A DNA stretch of 64,000 bases, taken from a virus. The stretch's first letter is position 1. The number at the start of each line of letters is the position of its first letter. Shown in pieces: positions 39,244-58,056 of the stretch. A model generated the notes under the pieces. That model was not told the DNA's origin, made no database searches, and was given only the letters and a program-made list of their open reading frames with translations. A program made the translations under genes and the position numbers. Where the stretch lies: IMG/VR virus record IMGVR_UViG_3300023179_000082, positions 1 to 64,000 of that record. The stretch is one strand, 5' to 3'.

Positions 39244-39753
39244 ATGCCATCAGCAAGTAAAATTAAGGGTAGTACATTTGAGCGAGAAATAGCCAAATAT
39301 CTATCAGATTTGTATAAAGAATCCTTTATACGTGTCCCCAATAGTGGCGCATTTATTGGTGGTATAAACACAAGTCGCAAAGAATTTTTGCATGAAGGTC
39401 AGGTAAGAAGCTTCAAAGGTGATATCATCCCAGGCGAATCTTTCAAACTCCTCAACATTGAATGTAAAAACTATGGTGATTTTTCCTTTCATCAATTACT
39501 AACTAGTTGCAAAGTATTAGATAATTGGTTAGACCAATTGATGGAAGTAAGTGATGAGCATGATTTAAATGTACTTTTTATGAAATTCAATCGTAAAGGT
39601 CGTTATATTGCTGTACAATGGCATCATCAGTGGGAATTAATCAATTACAGTGTTTACAAAAACAATACCCATGGTATATGGGTTATATCAGAATTAGAAC
39701 ATTTTTTTAAATTAAACTCAGGTCGTTTTAAACTTTTATCTCAACATACTTAG
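39244..39753 (+). CDS. Small PD-(D/E)XK-type nuclease, 169 aa
   Basis: The N-terminal half shows the layout of Holliday-junction-resolvase-like or VRR-type nucleases: KIKGSTFEREIAKYLSDLY (helix with a conserved Glu), RVPNSGAF, then GDIIP and NIECKNYGDFSFHQLL, where D of GDI and E-x-K of ECK are the likely metal-binding set. The C-terminal half (VLFMKFNRKGRYIAVQWHH) is a beta-rich end. It follows gp46 with a 16-nt gap, so it likely processes recombination intermediates with gp46/47. No strong ribosome site is visible (ATAAGTATCGAT before ATG). The substrate cannot be told from sequence. Confidence 0.65.
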   Translation: MPSASKIKGSTFEREIAKYLSDLYKESFIRVPNSGAFIGGINTSRKEFLHEGQVRSFKGDIIPGESFKLLNIECKNYGDFSFHQLLTSCKVLDNWLDQLMEVSDEHDLNVLFMKFNRKGRYIAVQWHHQWELINYSVYKNNTHGIWVISELEHFFKLNSGRFKLLSQHT

Positions 39754-39797
39754 GTCTCCTTAGGTCTAACATCTTACTTTTACTCCAATTTAGGTCT
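39750..39797 (+). repeat. Three TTAGGTCT direct repeats at 10-bp phase
   Basis: TTAGGTCT occurs at 39750-39757, 39760-39767 and 39790-39797, so starts are 10 and 30 bp apart. The first copy overlaps the stop of the nuclease gene. The GGTCT part can pair with AGACC at 39912-39916. Could be a phased protein-binding site or part of the RNA fold that follows. Confidence 0.5.
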
Positions 39798-40371
39798 TTA
39801 TTATAGAACAATAGGTTTGGTTGCATGACCTGTAACGCAACGTAGGTACACTAATTAAAGTTGGTTAATGCCTTGGCTGAGTTCTACAGCAGCTTCAATA
39901 GACTATCCCCAAGACCCATGTGGTTGTAAGGACGCTATAAACGGATGCCCATTGGTAGTCACGTTTCTATTGTCGTAATAGTTGAATCTACTGTAAAGTA
40001 GGTTAGGGTAAAAAGTATTTTTTATCAAGTGCTCGATCATAATAATAGTGGAAAAGGGTCGAGACTGTGTTAATAGCTAACTCACTGAGGTTATTAACGT
40101 TACAGTGTATGCGGTGTGTTTCTTGTACAAACAAGTTTTGGGGTGATATAGTCAAACCTACCTGAATAAAATGCACGAAGTGAGCACCTTCTACGAGAGT
40201 GGGCGGGGAAGAAGAACCAAATGTGTGGATTATTGCAACTGTAAAAAGTTACATTTATCCACCTTTTTGCAAAAAAGATAAACGGAAAAATAATAATAAA
40301 AAAAAATATGAGTGTACGTGGCTGAAGCGATAGCGTAAGCTTAGTACACGAATAGATGACCTTTGGTCATC
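39754..40371 (+). ncRNA. Candidate large structured RNA, group I intron-like core
   Basis: A 618-nt stretch with no gene, between the converging nuclease gene and 75-codon ORF. On the plus strand it shows long-range complementarity: GACTAT+CCCCAA (39901-39912) with TTGGGG and ATAGTC (40138-40143, 40148-40153, 4-nt bulge); GGTCTT (39793-39798) with AAGACC (39911-39916, competing with the first helix at AA); GTGCTC (40029-40034) with GAGCAC (40182-40187). Local hairpins: 39820-39841, 39876-39890, 39985-40004, 40032-40063, 40069-40098, 40122-40135, 40225-40262. AGACTA ... GATATAGTC with a GGTCTT/AAGACC partner resembles P7 and P3 of group I introns. No split host gene is seen, so it may be a free-standing RNA. 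The 3' part (40312-40371) has GTGTAC/GTACAC and a terminator-like hairpin. Fold and strand are inferences from reading by eye. Confidence 0.45.
40355..40371. terminator. Hairpin between converging units
   Basis: GATGACC (40355-40361), TTT loop, GGTCATC (40365-40371): a perfect 7-bp stem directly after the stop of the leftward 75-codon ORF and at the end of the rightward RNA region. The U-tract is poor on both strands, so termination strength is uncertain. Confidence 0.4.
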
Positions 40372-40599
40372 TTAAAAGAATGGTAATCCACTTTTCTTAG
40401 TAACTTCTAGATTTTCATCAATTAACTTGTTAATAATATTAGTTTCAGTTGGTGAAAGATTCATAGCATCAACATATGATAATGAACCACGCATATACCA
40501 TGCTGCTTTTAAAGCATTGCGTTTAATAATAGTAACTTCTTCTTCGTATCCTTTTACTAGCTTCTCTATATCATCTTGTGATAGATAGAGAAGCCTCAT
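40372..40599 (-). CDS. Tail assembly chaperone-like ORF, likely -1 frameshift extension of gp26
   Basis: A 75-codon ORF (MRLLYLSQDDIEKLVKGYEEE ... YMRGSLSYVDAMNLS ... KKSGLPFF) overlapping the end of gp26 by 4 nt (ATGA). The YMRG-x-LSY-x-DAM and LPFF ending recall small proteins encoded next to gp26 in T4-like marine phages, the position of T4 gp51, but the match is only suggestive. It lies exactly in the -1 frame relative to gp26, downstream of a TTTTTTC heptamer, so it may be made mainly as the C-terminal part of a 348-residue gp26 fusion. Independent re-initiation at the ATGA overlap is the alternative. The helical, charged sequence is compatible with a chaperone that binds the tape measure. 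Confidence 0.65.
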   Translation of the reverse strand: MRLLYLSQDDIEKLVKGYEEEVTIIKRNALKAAWYMRGSLSYVDAMNLSPTETNIINKLIDENLEVTKKSGLPFF

Positions 40600-40608
40600 T
40601 CGAAAAAA
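40560..40608 (-). promoter_or_regulatory. Candidate programmed -1 ribosomal frameshift signal
   Basis: On the minus strand, the gp26 frame reads GA-T TTT TTC-GAA-TGA: TTTTTTC (40608 to 40602) is an X-XXY-YYZ heptamer in the zero frame. After a 7-nt spacer (40601 to 40595) comes a perfect 10-bp stem, GCTTCTCTAT (40594 to 40585) with ATAGAGAAGC (40569 to 40560), 15-nt loop. A -1 slip reads TTT TTT CGA ATG, entering the frame of the 75-codon ORF. All three elements of a classical signal are present. Confidence 0.75.
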
Positions 40609-41417
40609 TCGGTAACACTAAATGTTATAGTTTGATTATATTCGTGTTGGCAACTTACGCATTTAAATCGTAATGGTTTAGATTGACTACTTTCACGCAA
40701 TTCTATATTGTGATCACGTATTGTGTCATACATTTTCTTATCACAGTTTTGTAAAAAATCCAAGATAAAAGGTTGATTTGATACACTAGTTTCAGGTGTT
40801 CTAATATATTCTATATTTTTAGATAGAATTTTTTGTGTTAAGTTGTTCATACGTACTAGCAATTCACTAGCTGCTTTATTCTTAACCTCACCATCCTCAT
40901 AATTTTCTAATTGTGCTAAACCACGTTGTATTTCAAATTGTTCAGCACTAGCATTATTATTATCTTGGTAGGTAGTTGACCTAAACTTGATTGCTAAATC
41001 ACCTACAACTAATTCAGTATTATAGTCACCAACTTGAATAGTGCTTATTAATTTTGAAAGGTTAATACCATAACGATTACTATTTTTACATGCAGGACAA
41101 TTTGTGTCTACGTCCATTTCATCACCGTTAGTGGCTATACGAATTGATATTAATACAGTTTCTAAGTCAGCATTAAGTAATAACCATGGATTTTTAATGG
41201 TTGGTACACAACTTTGAATGATGGAGACTACTGCTGAACCATTATACAAAGCATCAGGTGTACGTGCAGTAATTTCATCATTTGCAGTCATTGGGTATAC
41301 AGGAAGTTCACCTGTTGGTGGTAAATCTACGATTTCTGATGAATATTTGTAGTTGCTAGGTAAACGTATATGTATAGCAGGTCTGCGAAAATACTGCTTA
41401 AGTGGGTTGTTTTCCAT
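40596..41417 (-). CDS. 26: Baseplate hub/tail assembly protein gp26-like (273 aa)
   Basis: Resembles the T4 baseplate (gp26) family: after a short tail, LPVYPMTANDEITARTPDAL, SIIQSCVPTIKNPWLLLNADLETVLISIRIATNGDEM, then a zinc-ribbon-like pair CPACKN (near 115) and CVSCQHE (near 258). The start at 41417 (MENNPLKQYF) is supported by GGAG 11 nt upstream; an upstream ATG at 41498 would add 27 hydrophobic residues and overlap the divergent tape-measure start, so I reject it. The stop sits within a frameshift signal that would fuse it to the 75-codon ORF. Adjacent, divergent to the tape-measure candidate. In lambda-type phages such frameshifted pairs chaperone the tape measure; I infer the same role. 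Confidence 0.75.
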   Translation of the reverse strand: MENNPLKQYFRRPAIHIRLPSNYKYSSEIVDLPPTGELPVYPMTANDEITARTPDALYNGSAVVSIIQSCVPTIKNPWLLLNADLETVLISIRIATNGDEMDVDTNCPACKNSNRYGINLSKLISTIQVGDYNTELVVGDLAIKFRSTTYQDNNNASAEQFEIQRGLAQLENYEDGEVKNKAASELLVRMNNLTQKILSKNIEYIRTPETSVSNQPFILDFLQNCDKKMYDTIRDHNIELRESSQSKPLRFKCVSCQHEYNQTITFSVTDFFE

Positions 41418-41447
41418 GGTGAAGTTAAATCTCCGTATATATAATTT

Positions 41448-41455
41448 GATAAATA
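41448..41455 (+). promoter_or_regulatory. Late promoter-like octamer GATAAATA for tape measure
   Basis: GATAAATA, one mismatch to the T4 late consensus, 31 nt before the ATG at 41487, giving a leader of about 26 nt. TTGACATATA (41473-41482) lies between. Confidence 0.45.
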
Positions 41456-41486
41456 TATTTAATCCTAAAAAATTGACATATAAAAA

Positions 41487-44400
41487 ATGGCAGACCAACT
41501 TGATCCTGAATTAATGCGTCAGCTCAATGATAAATTCACTGAGTTATCAAATTCTATTACTACGATTGGCACTATTTCAGCCAAATCAATGAAATCAGTG
41601 GAGGACAATACTCAAAAAGTTGACAAAAATACATCATCTACTGAAGATAATACTAAAGCAACGGATGAAAATACTAGTTCAATCAAGCGTAATACTACTG
41701 CAGTAAACAGTCAGTTAAAGACTACGGAAAAAAATACTCAAGCATCTTCTGATCAAACTGATGTTATTAAAGAAGCTAATAATGCTATAAAAAATCAAGC
41801 ACAAGCGGTTGGTGCTAGTAAAAAAACATTTGATGATTTAACAAAAGCCACTAATCAGCAATTTAAATCATATATGGCAACTGAGGTTGCAAAAGAGCAA
41901 ATAAGTGGTGCATCAGCAAAAGCTCAGCAAGAATTAAATTCTAGACTAAAACTATCAAGCATTGGAATGGAAGTATTCCAAACAGGCGTAGAGGGTGTTA
42001 AGAAAGTTTTTGATGCTGCGATTGATGCGCAAATGAACTATACTAAAGCTTTGTTGCAGGGTACACGTGGTTTAGGTTTGGAAGCGCAGCGTAGAGAAAC
42101 TGAAGGCAAAGCTGTAAACCAAGTTATACGTGATTTTGGCAACTTAAGTATGTCGATTGGTGGATTGATGGTGGCGTTAGGACCGTTTGGTATAATTGGT
42201 CGTATTGTAGGTTTGGTTGGAGTAGGTGTTGGTATTTTGGCACAGTATGAAGCAAAAGCACGAGATTTTGCTTTGGAAGTGGCTACTATTACTGAACAGT
42301 TAAAAGATAAACTGTTTGATACTTTCAAAGATTTAAGTAATTCTGCTTTAACTACTGCAGGAGGTATGACCACATTACGTGCTCAAATGAAGAAGTTTGA
42401 TTTTGCTATGGCTGAAGTTGGTCAATTTGCAGCCGTAATAAAAGGTGCGGGTAAAGAGTTATCACAAATTGGTGGTTCTACAGTTAAAGGTTTAGAAAAC
42501 TTTGTTGAAACTGCTGCAGATTTGTTTGAAAGTCAACTTGGTAAAGAGTTGCAATACATGGGCTTGGATCGTGAAGAACAAATGAAAGGAACATTAAAGT
42601 TCTTAAGTTTACAAGCTAGATTAGGTGTTCAACAAGAAAAAGACATTAAAAAGTTATCACAATCAGCAGGAAAATACATATCAGAATTAGACCAATTAGC
42701 TACGCTAACAGGTATAACACGTCAAGAACAAGAACAAGCACGTGAACAAGTTATGGCAATTGAGGAATTACGTGCTGCTTTAGTGGAAGAAACTGCAAAA
42801 GGTGCTGCTGCAGATAAAGGTCGCTTAAAAGTATTAGAAGATGCCATACAAGTATCTACTGTATTAACTGCAGAAGGCATGAAAGAAGCAGGTGCTTCAT
42901 TAGCTAGAACAGTTGCTGCAGGTGGTGTAACAAGGGCTGAAGATGCTAAATTATTACAAACTGCACCACAATTTTTACAGAATATGATGCAAGGTGTGGG
43001 TAGTGTAACCGACAATTTACAATTATTTGGTAAAGAATCTAAACAAACATTGACACAATTGTCAAGCGCAGTAAAAGTATCAGGTGATATTGGTAAGGAA
43101 ATAGCAGCAGTTGACTACGCAAAATTATTTGATTTCATACCAAAAATAGATAAGATTGCAGAATTACAAAAACAATTCCCTGAGAAAACATTACCACAAA
43201 TCGTAGATGAAATGCGTAAGGTAACCGATCCCGCTACTAAAGCAGTACAAGATTTAATAAATGCTCAAAGAAAAGACGCAATTGCAAAAGAAGAATCAGG
43301 TGGAGGAATAAAAGGGGCAGCGGATTTACTAAAGTCAGGTGCACAAATATTTGGTATAAATGTTGAAAATTTTGGAAAATATGTACGTCAATTATTAGGA
43401 ATAAAAGACACTGCTAAGGTAGAAAAAACTGAAGCAACTAAAAAAGCAGAAGCTAAAGTAGAAGAAAAGAAAAAAATTACTGATATAGCCACTGAAAAAG
43501 CAACTGCTGCATCCATGGCTGAGGATCAAGCTAAGAAAGAATTAGCCGAACTATATAAAAAGGGTGACGTTGCAGGTGTCGAAGCTAAAAAAGTTGAAAT
43601 ACAAAAATTAACTGACGAGCGTATGAAAGCTGAACAAGAAATGATGGTTGCTTCACGTGATCAATCACAAGCTGCTTTAGAAGCTTCAAACCAACGTAAA
43701 AAAGATATACGAGAAGTAAACCAACTTGATGATAAAATAAGATTTTATAAAGATTCAATTAATCTTAACAATATGAAAATTGATTCATTATCAAAAGACC
43801 AAGTTGAATTAAATATAGAACTTAAAAAATCAACGGGATTTGCTAAATTAGAAAATGAAAATCGATTAAAACATCTTACTCGATTAAGAGAATTAGCAGA
43901 AAAAGAAGTAAAAGAAGCAGAAGAAAATATCAAAAAAAGTGAAGAACGTAAAAAAGAACTAGAAAAGAAAACGTCTACCGCTACCCCAACCCCTGCAGCA
44001 TCTTCACAAGAACGTAAAGAATTTGTGGACAAAATGTATGCAACATTACTTGAGCAAGCTAAAAAACAAGGTGTTGCAAATCCTGAAGTTGTTGCTAGAT
44101 TAGGTGTTGCTCAATCTGCTTTAGAAACAGGGTATGGTAAATCCACTGCAGGTGGTCAAAATTATTTTGGTATTAAAGCAGGTAAAGGTCAGCCTAGTGT
44201 CACTGCGGAAACTGAAGAATTTGATGCAGCCAAAGGTGTAATGGTCAAACAACAAGCTGCGTTTAAAAAATATAGTAGCATGGAAGAATCTGCTGCTGAT
44301 TATATTAAATTCTTAAAAGAAAATCAGCGATATAAGGAAGTATTAGCAGCAAAAACACTTGACGAGGCTATTCTAGCACAAAGTATGTCAGGTTATGCTA

Positions 44401-44701: not shown

Positions 44702-44709
44702 TATAAATA
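44702..44709 (+). promoter_or_regulatory. Late promoter octamer TATAAATA abutting portal gene
   Basis: Perfect T4 late consensus, only 4 nt before the ATG at 44714. T4-like spacing puts the transcription start at or one base inside the start codon. Confidence 0.55.
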
Positions 44710-46471: not shown

Positions 46472-46479
46472 GATAAATA
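46472..46479 (+). promoter_or_regulatory. Late promoter-like octamer GATAAATA abutting a start codon
   Basis: GATAAATA at the end of the portal gene, with 5 nt to the ATG at 46485. With T4 late spacing the first transcribed base would be the A of that ATG. Confidence 0.45.
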
Positions 46480-46484
46480 AATTT

Positions 46485-46709
46485 ATGTACTTAATGGAAT
46501 TTTACAACGCTGCGCCTAAAGGAATGCAAGATGTGGAAGATGATCATAGTCAACCACGTTGGGGTGAATCACGTAAAACTAAGGGTTTAACATTAGCAGC
46601 AATCAATAAAATTAGGCGTTTTAAAGAAGTTAGAACATACGAACGTGCTGAAAATTTGAAAAAAATTCGACAACAATATTCACCACCTGCCCCTGAGGGC
46701 GGTCTATAA
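46485..46709 (+). CDS. Small basic protein between portal and core genes (74 aa)
   Basis: MYLMEFYNAAPKGMQDVEDD ... LTLAAINKIRRFKEVRTYERAENLKKIRQQY, ending PPAPEGGL: mostly helical, with a basic C-terminal half. Position between gp20 and the prohead core gene corresponds to T4 gp67/gp68, but sequence similarity is not evident to me. A start at M4 (46494) is equally possible. A frame opening at 46368 overlaps the portal gene and is not needed. Possibly a prohead core or packaging-related protein. A terminator-like hairpin and a 20-bp palindrome follow it. Confidence 0.6.
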   Translation: MYLMEFYNAAPKGMQDVEDDHSQPRWGESRKTKGLTLAAINKIRRFKEVRTYERAENLKKIRQQYSPPAPEGGL

Positions 46710-46711
46710 TA

Positions 46712-46731
46712 TAGTATAAAATTTTATACTA
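46712..46731. promoter_or_regulatory. 20-bp perfect palindrome
   Basis: TAGTATAAAATTTTATACTA, a perfect dyad starting 3 nt after the stop of the 74-aa gene. It has no loop, so it suits a dimeric DNA-binding protein better than an RNA hairpin; AT-rich chance symmetry is possible. Confidence 0.35.
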
Positions 46732-46756
46732 ATCCGTATATTTTCTCCAAAAACGT

Positions 46757-46787
46757 AAAAAAATAGCACTTTTAGCTATGTTTTTTT
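46757..46787 (+). terminator. Rho-independent terminator-like hairpin
   Basis: A-rich run, ATAGC stem (46763-46767), 7-nt loop, GCTAT (46775-46779), then G and seven T. The A and T runs can extend the stem. It separates the portal/74-aa unit from the core-protease-scaffold-capsid unit. The stem is weak. Confidence 0.45.
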
Positions 46788-46794
46788 AGATATA

Positions 46795-46833
46795 AGGTAA
46801 ATAAAACTAGCACAAGCCATTTACCTAAAGGAG
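46795..46833 (+). promoter_or_regulatory. 5' leader of prohead core gene: stem-loop before Shine-Dalgarno
   Basis: AGGTAAAT (46795-46802) is complementary to ATTTACCT (46819-46826), 16-nt loop, followed directly by the ribosome site AAAGGAG (46827-46833) and ATG at 46844. The left arm overlaps a late-like octamer GGTAAATA (46796-46803). So this is either an RNA hairpin on read-through transcripts or a promoter whose transcript lacks the left arm. Confidence 0.4.
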
Positions 46834-46843
46834 AATACATTAA

Positions 46844-57817: not shown

Positions 57818-57826
57818 GGAGATTAT

Positions 57827-57997
57827 ATGAGTTGGACTAATAAAAAACCACATTCCAAAACACCACCTTGGATCTATAGACAAACATCAAATCGTTATCA
57901 CGAAGATCCAATCGGGCAAATATCCCAAAATTATTCCAACGAATTAGAAAAAAGTAAAAAACAACTTGAAGAATATAAAAATGAACCAACCAAATAA
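57827..57997 (+). CDS. Small hypothetical protein after desaturase (56 aa)
   Basis: MSWTNKKPHSKTPPWIYRQT ... QISQNYSNELEKSKKQLEEYKNEPTK: 56 residues, polar, with a C-terminal helix that could form a coiled coil. An ideal AAGGAG site 5 nt before the ATG and the 9-nt spacing after the desaturase show it is translated in the same operon. No family recognised. Possibly a desaturase-associated peptide, but nothing in the sequence proves that. Confidence 0.7.
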   Translation: MSWTNKKPHSKTPPWIYRQTSNRYHEDPIGQISQNYSNELEKSKKQLEEYKNEPTK

Positions 57998-58000
57998 ATA
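57993..58000 (+). promoter_or_regulatory. Late promoter-like octamer AATAAATA before a terminator
   Basis: AATAAATA overlapping the stop of the 56-aa ORF, 29 nt before the terminator stem. No rightward gene lies between, so if active it would make a transcript of about 50 nt. Confidence 0.25.
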
Positions 58001-58028
58001 CAGTATCTCAATCGGGATGGGAGCAATT

Positions 58029-58055
58029 AGGGAACCATAATAGGTTCCTTTTTTG
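58029..58055 (+). terminator. Rho-independent terminator after desaturase operon
   Basis: AGGGAACC, ATAATA loop, GGTTCCTT followed by a T-run (six T after the GGTTCC core). The 6-bp GC-containing core extends by a G-T and an A-T pair. It also faces the stop of the leftward gene at 58057. Confidence 0.85.
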
Positions 58056-58056
58056 T

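Follow-up and report, generated by a model that had tools for sequence, protein, structure and literature searches.

The question raised by positions 39754-40371 of the virus DNA analyzed here is what, if not a protein, they encode. This 618-nt interval is bounded by the stop codons of two genes, one for a 169-aa nuclease on the + strand and one of 75 aa on the - strand, in a 64,000-nt stretch (hereafter the window) that is itself a portion of a 74,219-base virus record. A first-pass annotation had described the interval as a gene-free gap of unusual size folding into long-range helices, and had proposed either a group I core or a separate ornate phage RNA of the GOLLD or ROOL type. The gap is real, the longest ATG ORF within it being 45 aa with no convincing or conserved ORF present, and no other true gap in the window is as long. 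For this comparison the other ORF-free stretches of at least 150 nt were taken from a crude ORF call and each was re-examined: those at 249-584 and 903-1550 are covered by an ORF running off the window edge, that at 46472-46843 is partly covered by a 113-aa ORF, and that at 57818-58056 contains a 56-aa ORF.

Locus and neighboring genes

The upstream gene encodes a phage nuclease of the RusA-like/PD-(D/E)XK kind, and the convergent downstream 75-aa gene, which recovered no Pfam or PHROG match, is followed by the gene for a baseplate hub protein (Table 1). The nearest relatives of the nuclease in cultured phages come from very large phages, namely Salicola phage SCTP-2 (44%), PA5oct-like Pseudomonas phages (45%) and Sinorhizobium phage Phosso (36%); the same gene arrangement was absent from the three stretches of these genomes that were inspected. 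The window has no tRNA genes. In a related 364-kb phage contig (G005), 43 tRNA genes were found by ARAGORN, among the matches listed, at 220-240 kb (locus L416), and positions 313799-319046 of the same contig (within L420) form a stretch of about 5.2 kb in which a crude call accepted no ORF of at least 60 aa.

Table 1. Parts of the window RNA and adjoining features, in window coordinates
Feature	Position	Strand	Basis or remark
Nuclease gene, RusA-like / PD-(D/E)XK, 169 aa, directly upstream of RNA	39244..39753	+	phrog_244 1.9e-18, PF24608 7.4e-25
Three TTAGGTCT copies, 5' edge of RNA	39750, 39760, 39790 (39750..39797)	+	only matches in 64-kb window
Structured RNA body, about 480 nt, both ends putative	39790..40269	+	conservation, covariation; start placed where conservation begins
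H1 hairpin, GUUGC/GCAAC	39820..39841	+	invariant
H2a/H2b hairpin	39844..39873	+	solely one-sided changes
H3 hairpin	39876..39890	+	1 pair changed on both sides
H4, CAAURGA/UCYAUUG	39896-39902 / 39966-39972 (39896..39972)	+	1 pair changed on both sides
P7-like long-range helix, GACUA+CCC with GGG+UAGUC	39901-39912 / 40138-40153	+	complementarity kept 5/5; overlaps H4 by two bases
H5, inside H4	39940-39943 / 39962-39965	+	1 pair changed on both sides
H6	39985-39992 / 39997-40004	+	3 pairs changed on both sides
H7	40007-40013 / 40020-40026	+	3 pairs changed on both sides
H8	40032-40038 / 40057-40063	+	3 pairs changed on both sides
H9	40064-40068 / 40102-40106	+	4 pairs changed on both sides
H10	40069-40078 / 40089-40098	+	2 pairs changed on both sides
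H11a/H11b, around H12	40107-40121 / 40169-40185	+	H11b: 3 pairs changed on both sides
H13 hairpin	40190..40203	+	1 pair changed on both sides
Hairpin then U run, probable intrinsic terminator of RNA	40225..40268	+	fold in five type A sequences
Hairpin then U run, probable terminator of 75-aa gene	40312..40349	-	- strand fold
Short hairpin GATGACC/GGTCATC, sequence part common to type-B gaps	40355..40371	.	sequence comparison
75-aa gene, downstream, convergent	40372..40599	-	conserved in relatives
Baseplate hub protein gene	40596..41498	-	phrog_150 5.5e-17

Covariation in the window-type RNA

The free energy of the window sequence taken alone is mildly low (z -2.2, 20 shuffles), and the case for a structured RNA is carried by comparison with relatives. 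Versions of the window type (type A; the labels A-E are our own) were recovered by a nuclease search and a pattern search and amount to five distinct sequences, the window, L002, L003, L004 and L084, the match statistics of L005 being identical to those of L004. A second pattern search yielded no further type A contigs, nor did a broader nuclease search, whose matches fall in identity from 76% to 62%. When the alignment columns of the five sequences were shuffled, the alifold energy of the real alignment gave a z of -8.0, and its 28 compensatory pairs stood against 9.2 (sd 2.9) in the shuffles, 0/150 of which were as high. The structure with named helices comprises 97 pairs in 17 helices, for which 99.0% of 481 cells are paired. 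Covariation across homologous gaps, which the first-pass annotation had named as a check, is evident in this structure as 23 pairs with both partners altered, the shuffle mean being 9.8, and 0/500 shuffles reached any of five measures. Pairing falls to 35-42% once the partners are slid by 1 to 3 columns, a comparison in which the named structure has an advantage since it was derived from the same five sequences in which the pairs were later counted. The alifold energy is -169.5 on the + strand vs -139.0 on the - strand. A chance fold is excluded for type A by the column-shuffle and 500-shuffle tests, and the comparative evidence indicates that the + strand of 39754-40371 specifies a structured RNA that is conserved among relatives, with about 15 helices, most of which display compensatory changes. 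Helix H9 takes the forms ACUGU/ACAGU, GGCAA/UUGCU, GGUAU/AUGCU or AUCAG/CUGAU, and H11a/H11b enclose, besides H12, a near-invariant strand, GGGGnGAYAUAGUCAAACCUACCUGA.

The helices proposed earlier from the single sequence fared unevenly. The 12-bp complementarity with a 4-nt bulge, here termed the P7-like helix, does exist, but an equally good one occurs in 65/200 shuffled sequences. Its GACTA/TAGTC and CCC/GGG elements are the sole part of the earlier set that is kept in relatives: in the alignment GGTCTT/AAGACC is not kept in L004, L002, L003 or L084, and the pairing of GTGCTC/GAGCAC is not retained by all relatives. In 5/5 window-type sequences GACUA/UAGUC is complementary and invariant and CC/GG is kept, and in the register that was counted no pair has both partners altered. 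Covariation hardly tests a helix that is so nearly invariant, and hence the long-range pairing of GACUA/UAGUC plus CC/GG is plausible, not proven. By eye, a shifted pairing, CCGAAA/UUUCGG, is possible in L004 in place of the window's CCCCAA/UUGGGG.

Putative ends of the RNA

A 3' hairpin with a U-rich tail is present in 5/5 type A sequences with differing stem letters. This hairpin is absent from the list returned by a consensus terminator scan, perhaps owing to internal loops in its stem. No promoter for the RNA was recognized, the consensus scan performing near chance level, and no TATAAATA, which we take to be of the T4 late-promoter type, lies near the RNA. This motif is found at 44702-44709, between two structural genes, and has 5 occurrences in the window against 13.6 expected. 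The 5' edge is marked by the TTAGGTCT repeats: 2.3 matches would be expected overall in 64 kb, and all three observed fall within 48 nt. A similar array marks this edge in L002, L003 and L084, each with three CTCAGGTCT-like copies spaced 35-36 and 12-13.

The same locus in related phages

Loci were collected from the best 80 of 164, best 80 of 530 and best 80 of 355 nuclease relatives, a selection by score in which distant relatives are undersampled. Both neighbors, the nuclease and the 75-aa gene, are present at 230/241 of these loci; the 11 without a recognized 75-aa gene were left out. Because several contigs recur across the searches, 121 different gap sequences were counted rather than 230 loci. 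In all 121, which derive from the best-scoring matches, the gap measures 403 to 1422 nt, never less than 403 nt. They fall into 104 of type B, 5 of type A, 4 of type C with 2 C-like, 5 of type D and 1 of type E. Most gaps of 900 nt or more contain an extra ORF; that of the 1422-nt gap (L254) resembles the hub gene, so that this gap is not gene-free. At the gap start of L113 and L132, just upstream of the RNA, there is a small ORF of 87-92 aa with a match to PF12843.

Type B likewise shows the marks of a structured RNA, its covariation being very strong. In a core alignment of 29 sequences 18/29 pairs are changed on both sides, and in a whole-length alignment of 66 sequences (gaps over 700 nt and near copies having been dropped, 104 to 98 to 66) most helices show compensatory changes. 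Paired positions hold 404 G-U vs 105 A-C cells, a count that is favored by the structure having been folded on the + strand; the alifold energy is -189 on the + strand vs -169 on the - strand. A pseudoknot, UCCC/GGGA, chosen as the best of a position scan, pairs in 98.4% of cells and shows 26 changes that affect both partners. A second pairing, of CACUACA with the GGUAGUGC hairpin, was discarded as the two do not vary together, as was a likeness of CCUCCUUGAG to an anti-Shine-Dalgarno sequence, which is changed in type D and some B sequences. An independent 20-mer search recovered at least 80 loci, and among the matches listed 80/80 fit the type-B core model (R1), the nuclease is present in 66/67 with enough upstream sequence and the 75-aa gene in 76/76 with enough downstream sequence. 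Of these 80 listed loci, 62 have both neighbors, 17 run out of sequence on one side and show the expected neighbor on the other, and in one the 75-aa gene is present and the nuclease is not recognized. In bacterial genomes 24 pattern matches gave 0 full R1 matches, one, at a contig end, covering 23/152 model positions with E 0.056.

Types A and B occupy the same locus between the nuclease and the 75-aa gene. R1 has no match up to E 10 in the window, L002-L005 or L084, a profile comparison finds in common the 3' terminal hairpin region alone, and neither covariance model nor profile HMM detected homology of the two types beyond that region. As the two are not alignable, the view that the clade carries a single RNA is based on its position and on the phage tree. 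Type D has about 60 nt of 5' domain in common with type B (best E 3e-7). A blastn search of a phage collection with the window gap, one type-B gap and one type-C gap gave no match. These comparisons suggest that the window RNA is one version of an RNA which related giant phages retain at this site, with a sequence almost wholly different between lineages.

Phylogeny and signs of exchange

In a nuclease tree of 121 rows, types B, A and D are each split off from the remaining rows by a supported branch (100/98, 100/91 and 100/100, respectively), implying that RNA type follows phage lineage. With midpoint rooting A is sister to B, D is next, and C and E lie outside. Given the 5' domain common to D and B, an RNA was probably already present at this locus in the ancestor of types A, B and D, and the type A RNA would be a strongly diverged or replaced descendant of it.

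Signs of exchange are superimposed on this pattern. As far as the nuclease, the closest relative of the window is L003 (nuclease identity 0.85, vs 0.73 to L004), and from the RNA onward it is L004 (RNA identity 0.85, vs 0.72 to L003); the switch falls at about 39750-39820, which is the 5' edge of the RNA, where the AGGTCT repeats sit, and points to a recombination joint there. Between L112 and L118 identity is 97.1% across some 4650 upstream bases and 98% in the parts of the gap that flank the core, whereas their RNA cores of 150-170 bases (gap about 143-320 and 143-292, respectively) have 51% alignment identity with a score of 66, no better than shuffled sequences (60.5, sd 6.2), suggestive of a core swap. 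Homing endonuclease genes (phrog_314) lie on the - strand between the RNA and the 75-aa gene in the gaps of L053, L105 and L151, and, by eye, a near copy of such a gene is present in L162.

Functional considerations

We consider it probable that the locus is a phage noncoding RNA gene, on the + strand, specifying a structured RNA of about 480 nt. The RNA would be transcribed together with the gp46-nuclease genes or immediately behind them, end near 40269, persist as a stable RNA and act in trans during infection, free or as an RNP, as a scaffold, decoy or regulator. A stable trans-acting noncoding RNA or RNP of infection is our best guess for its role, the trans-acting step being, taken by itself, a tentative proposal. 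Precedents among large phage RNAs are GOLLD and ROOL (available text of PMC12286853) and the transcript of phage ICP1 (available text of PMC7567579).

The main rival, possible though on balance unlikely, is that the RNA belongs to the gp46-nuclease mRNA as its cis-acting 3' untranslated region, stabilizing or regulating that message. It would account for the RNA being on the nuclease strand and starting at the nuclease stop codon with no recognized promoter, and for the nuclease lying upstream in nearly every type-B copy with enough sequence among the matches listed (66/67). Yet the RNA is far larger and more complex than ordinary stabilizing 3' hairpins, and that of the window has its history in common with the genes downstream of it rather than with the nuclease.

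It is improbable that the palindromes merely resemble RNA helices and belong to a DNA element, such as a replication origin or a recombination or packaging site. The recombination joint in the window, the repeats at the 5' edge and the adjoining homing endonucleases in relatives are in keeping with such an element; against it are the excess of G-U over A-C in type B, even if folding on the + strand favors this, and the preference for the + strand in types A and B. Nor does GC skew point to a replication origin, since neither the window nor the 364-kb relative has a turning point here.

A group I intron or group I-like ribozyme, one of the first-pass proposals, can be virtually dismissed. Group I introns have a P7 of the form GACUA...GAUAUAGUC, and a putative long-range pairing resembling it is possible in 5/5 type A sequences (L004 has GACAUAGUC); the other features tested fail. 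The group I model RF00028, which detected 8/14 control genomes, 2 of them over the cut-off, has no match at the locus up to E 10 in any of the 5/5 type A records. The nuclease is full length, its 169 aa aligning with relatives, and the next gene is intact on the opposite strand, so that no exons are split. Helix order is also wrong: the P7-like arms are about 230 nt apart, the GGTCTT/AAGACC proposed for P3 is not kept, and the supported crossing helix is H4, which overlaps the P7-like helix directly instead of being a P3 with P4-P6 between. RF00028 absence, gene context and helix order together rule the intron out, and of the two options raised earlier it is the separate ornate RNA that is borne out by covariation and a fixed locus.

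Membership in GOLLD, ROOL or another described large RNA class is just as improbable, the resemblance holding in the loose sense that the window RNA too is large, ornate and phage-borne. The Rfam search suggested in the first-pass annotation returned 0 matches to all 4227 Rfam 15 families over the whole window at gathering score, the GOLLD and ROOL models gave none up to E 10 over 39600-40500, and Rfam 15 recovered nothing useful, at gathering or relaxed thresholds, from 14 type-B loci and 5 loci chosen for other types and long gaps. As far as the available text of PMC12286853 goes, GOLLD and ROOL are large, ornate, noncoding phage RNAs whose functions are open; many GOLLD RNAs exceed 800 nt, vs about 480 nt for the window type, and both classes are often near tRNA genes, though this is not a strict criterion, whereas the window RNA has no tRNA near it in 64 kb. 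Vibrio phage ICP1 offers a further likeness: it produces an abundant noncoding transcript of ~800 nt between gp139 and gp140, that is, a long RNA from an ORF-less gap of a large phage (PMC7567579, available text). The ICP1 locus differs in lying by lysis genes; the blastn searches with the gaps were made against a phage collection that may not include ICP1. Among the papers listed in literature searches, none names the present RNA in its title or displayed abstract.

Implications

The presence of at least four sequence types, a core swap, a recombination joint and homing endonucleases allows the speculative and rather unlikely reading that a large RNA which the phage requires always sits at this locus, its body being rebuilt or exchanged time and again. 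This would fit type-specific recognition, as in phage competition or host-defense evasion, with selection for change under which location and overall form are retained. Every member examined of this large group of uncultured phages, whose genomes are gene-dense, has a structured RNA at the one site, and it is probably something that the phage needs. It has no match to an Rfam family or in the cultured-phage collection that was searched. Few large phage RNAs are known, and this one extends them by a new class for which alignments and a working model are available; because the RNA turns over between lineages, what such RNAs recognize becomes testable by swapping types.
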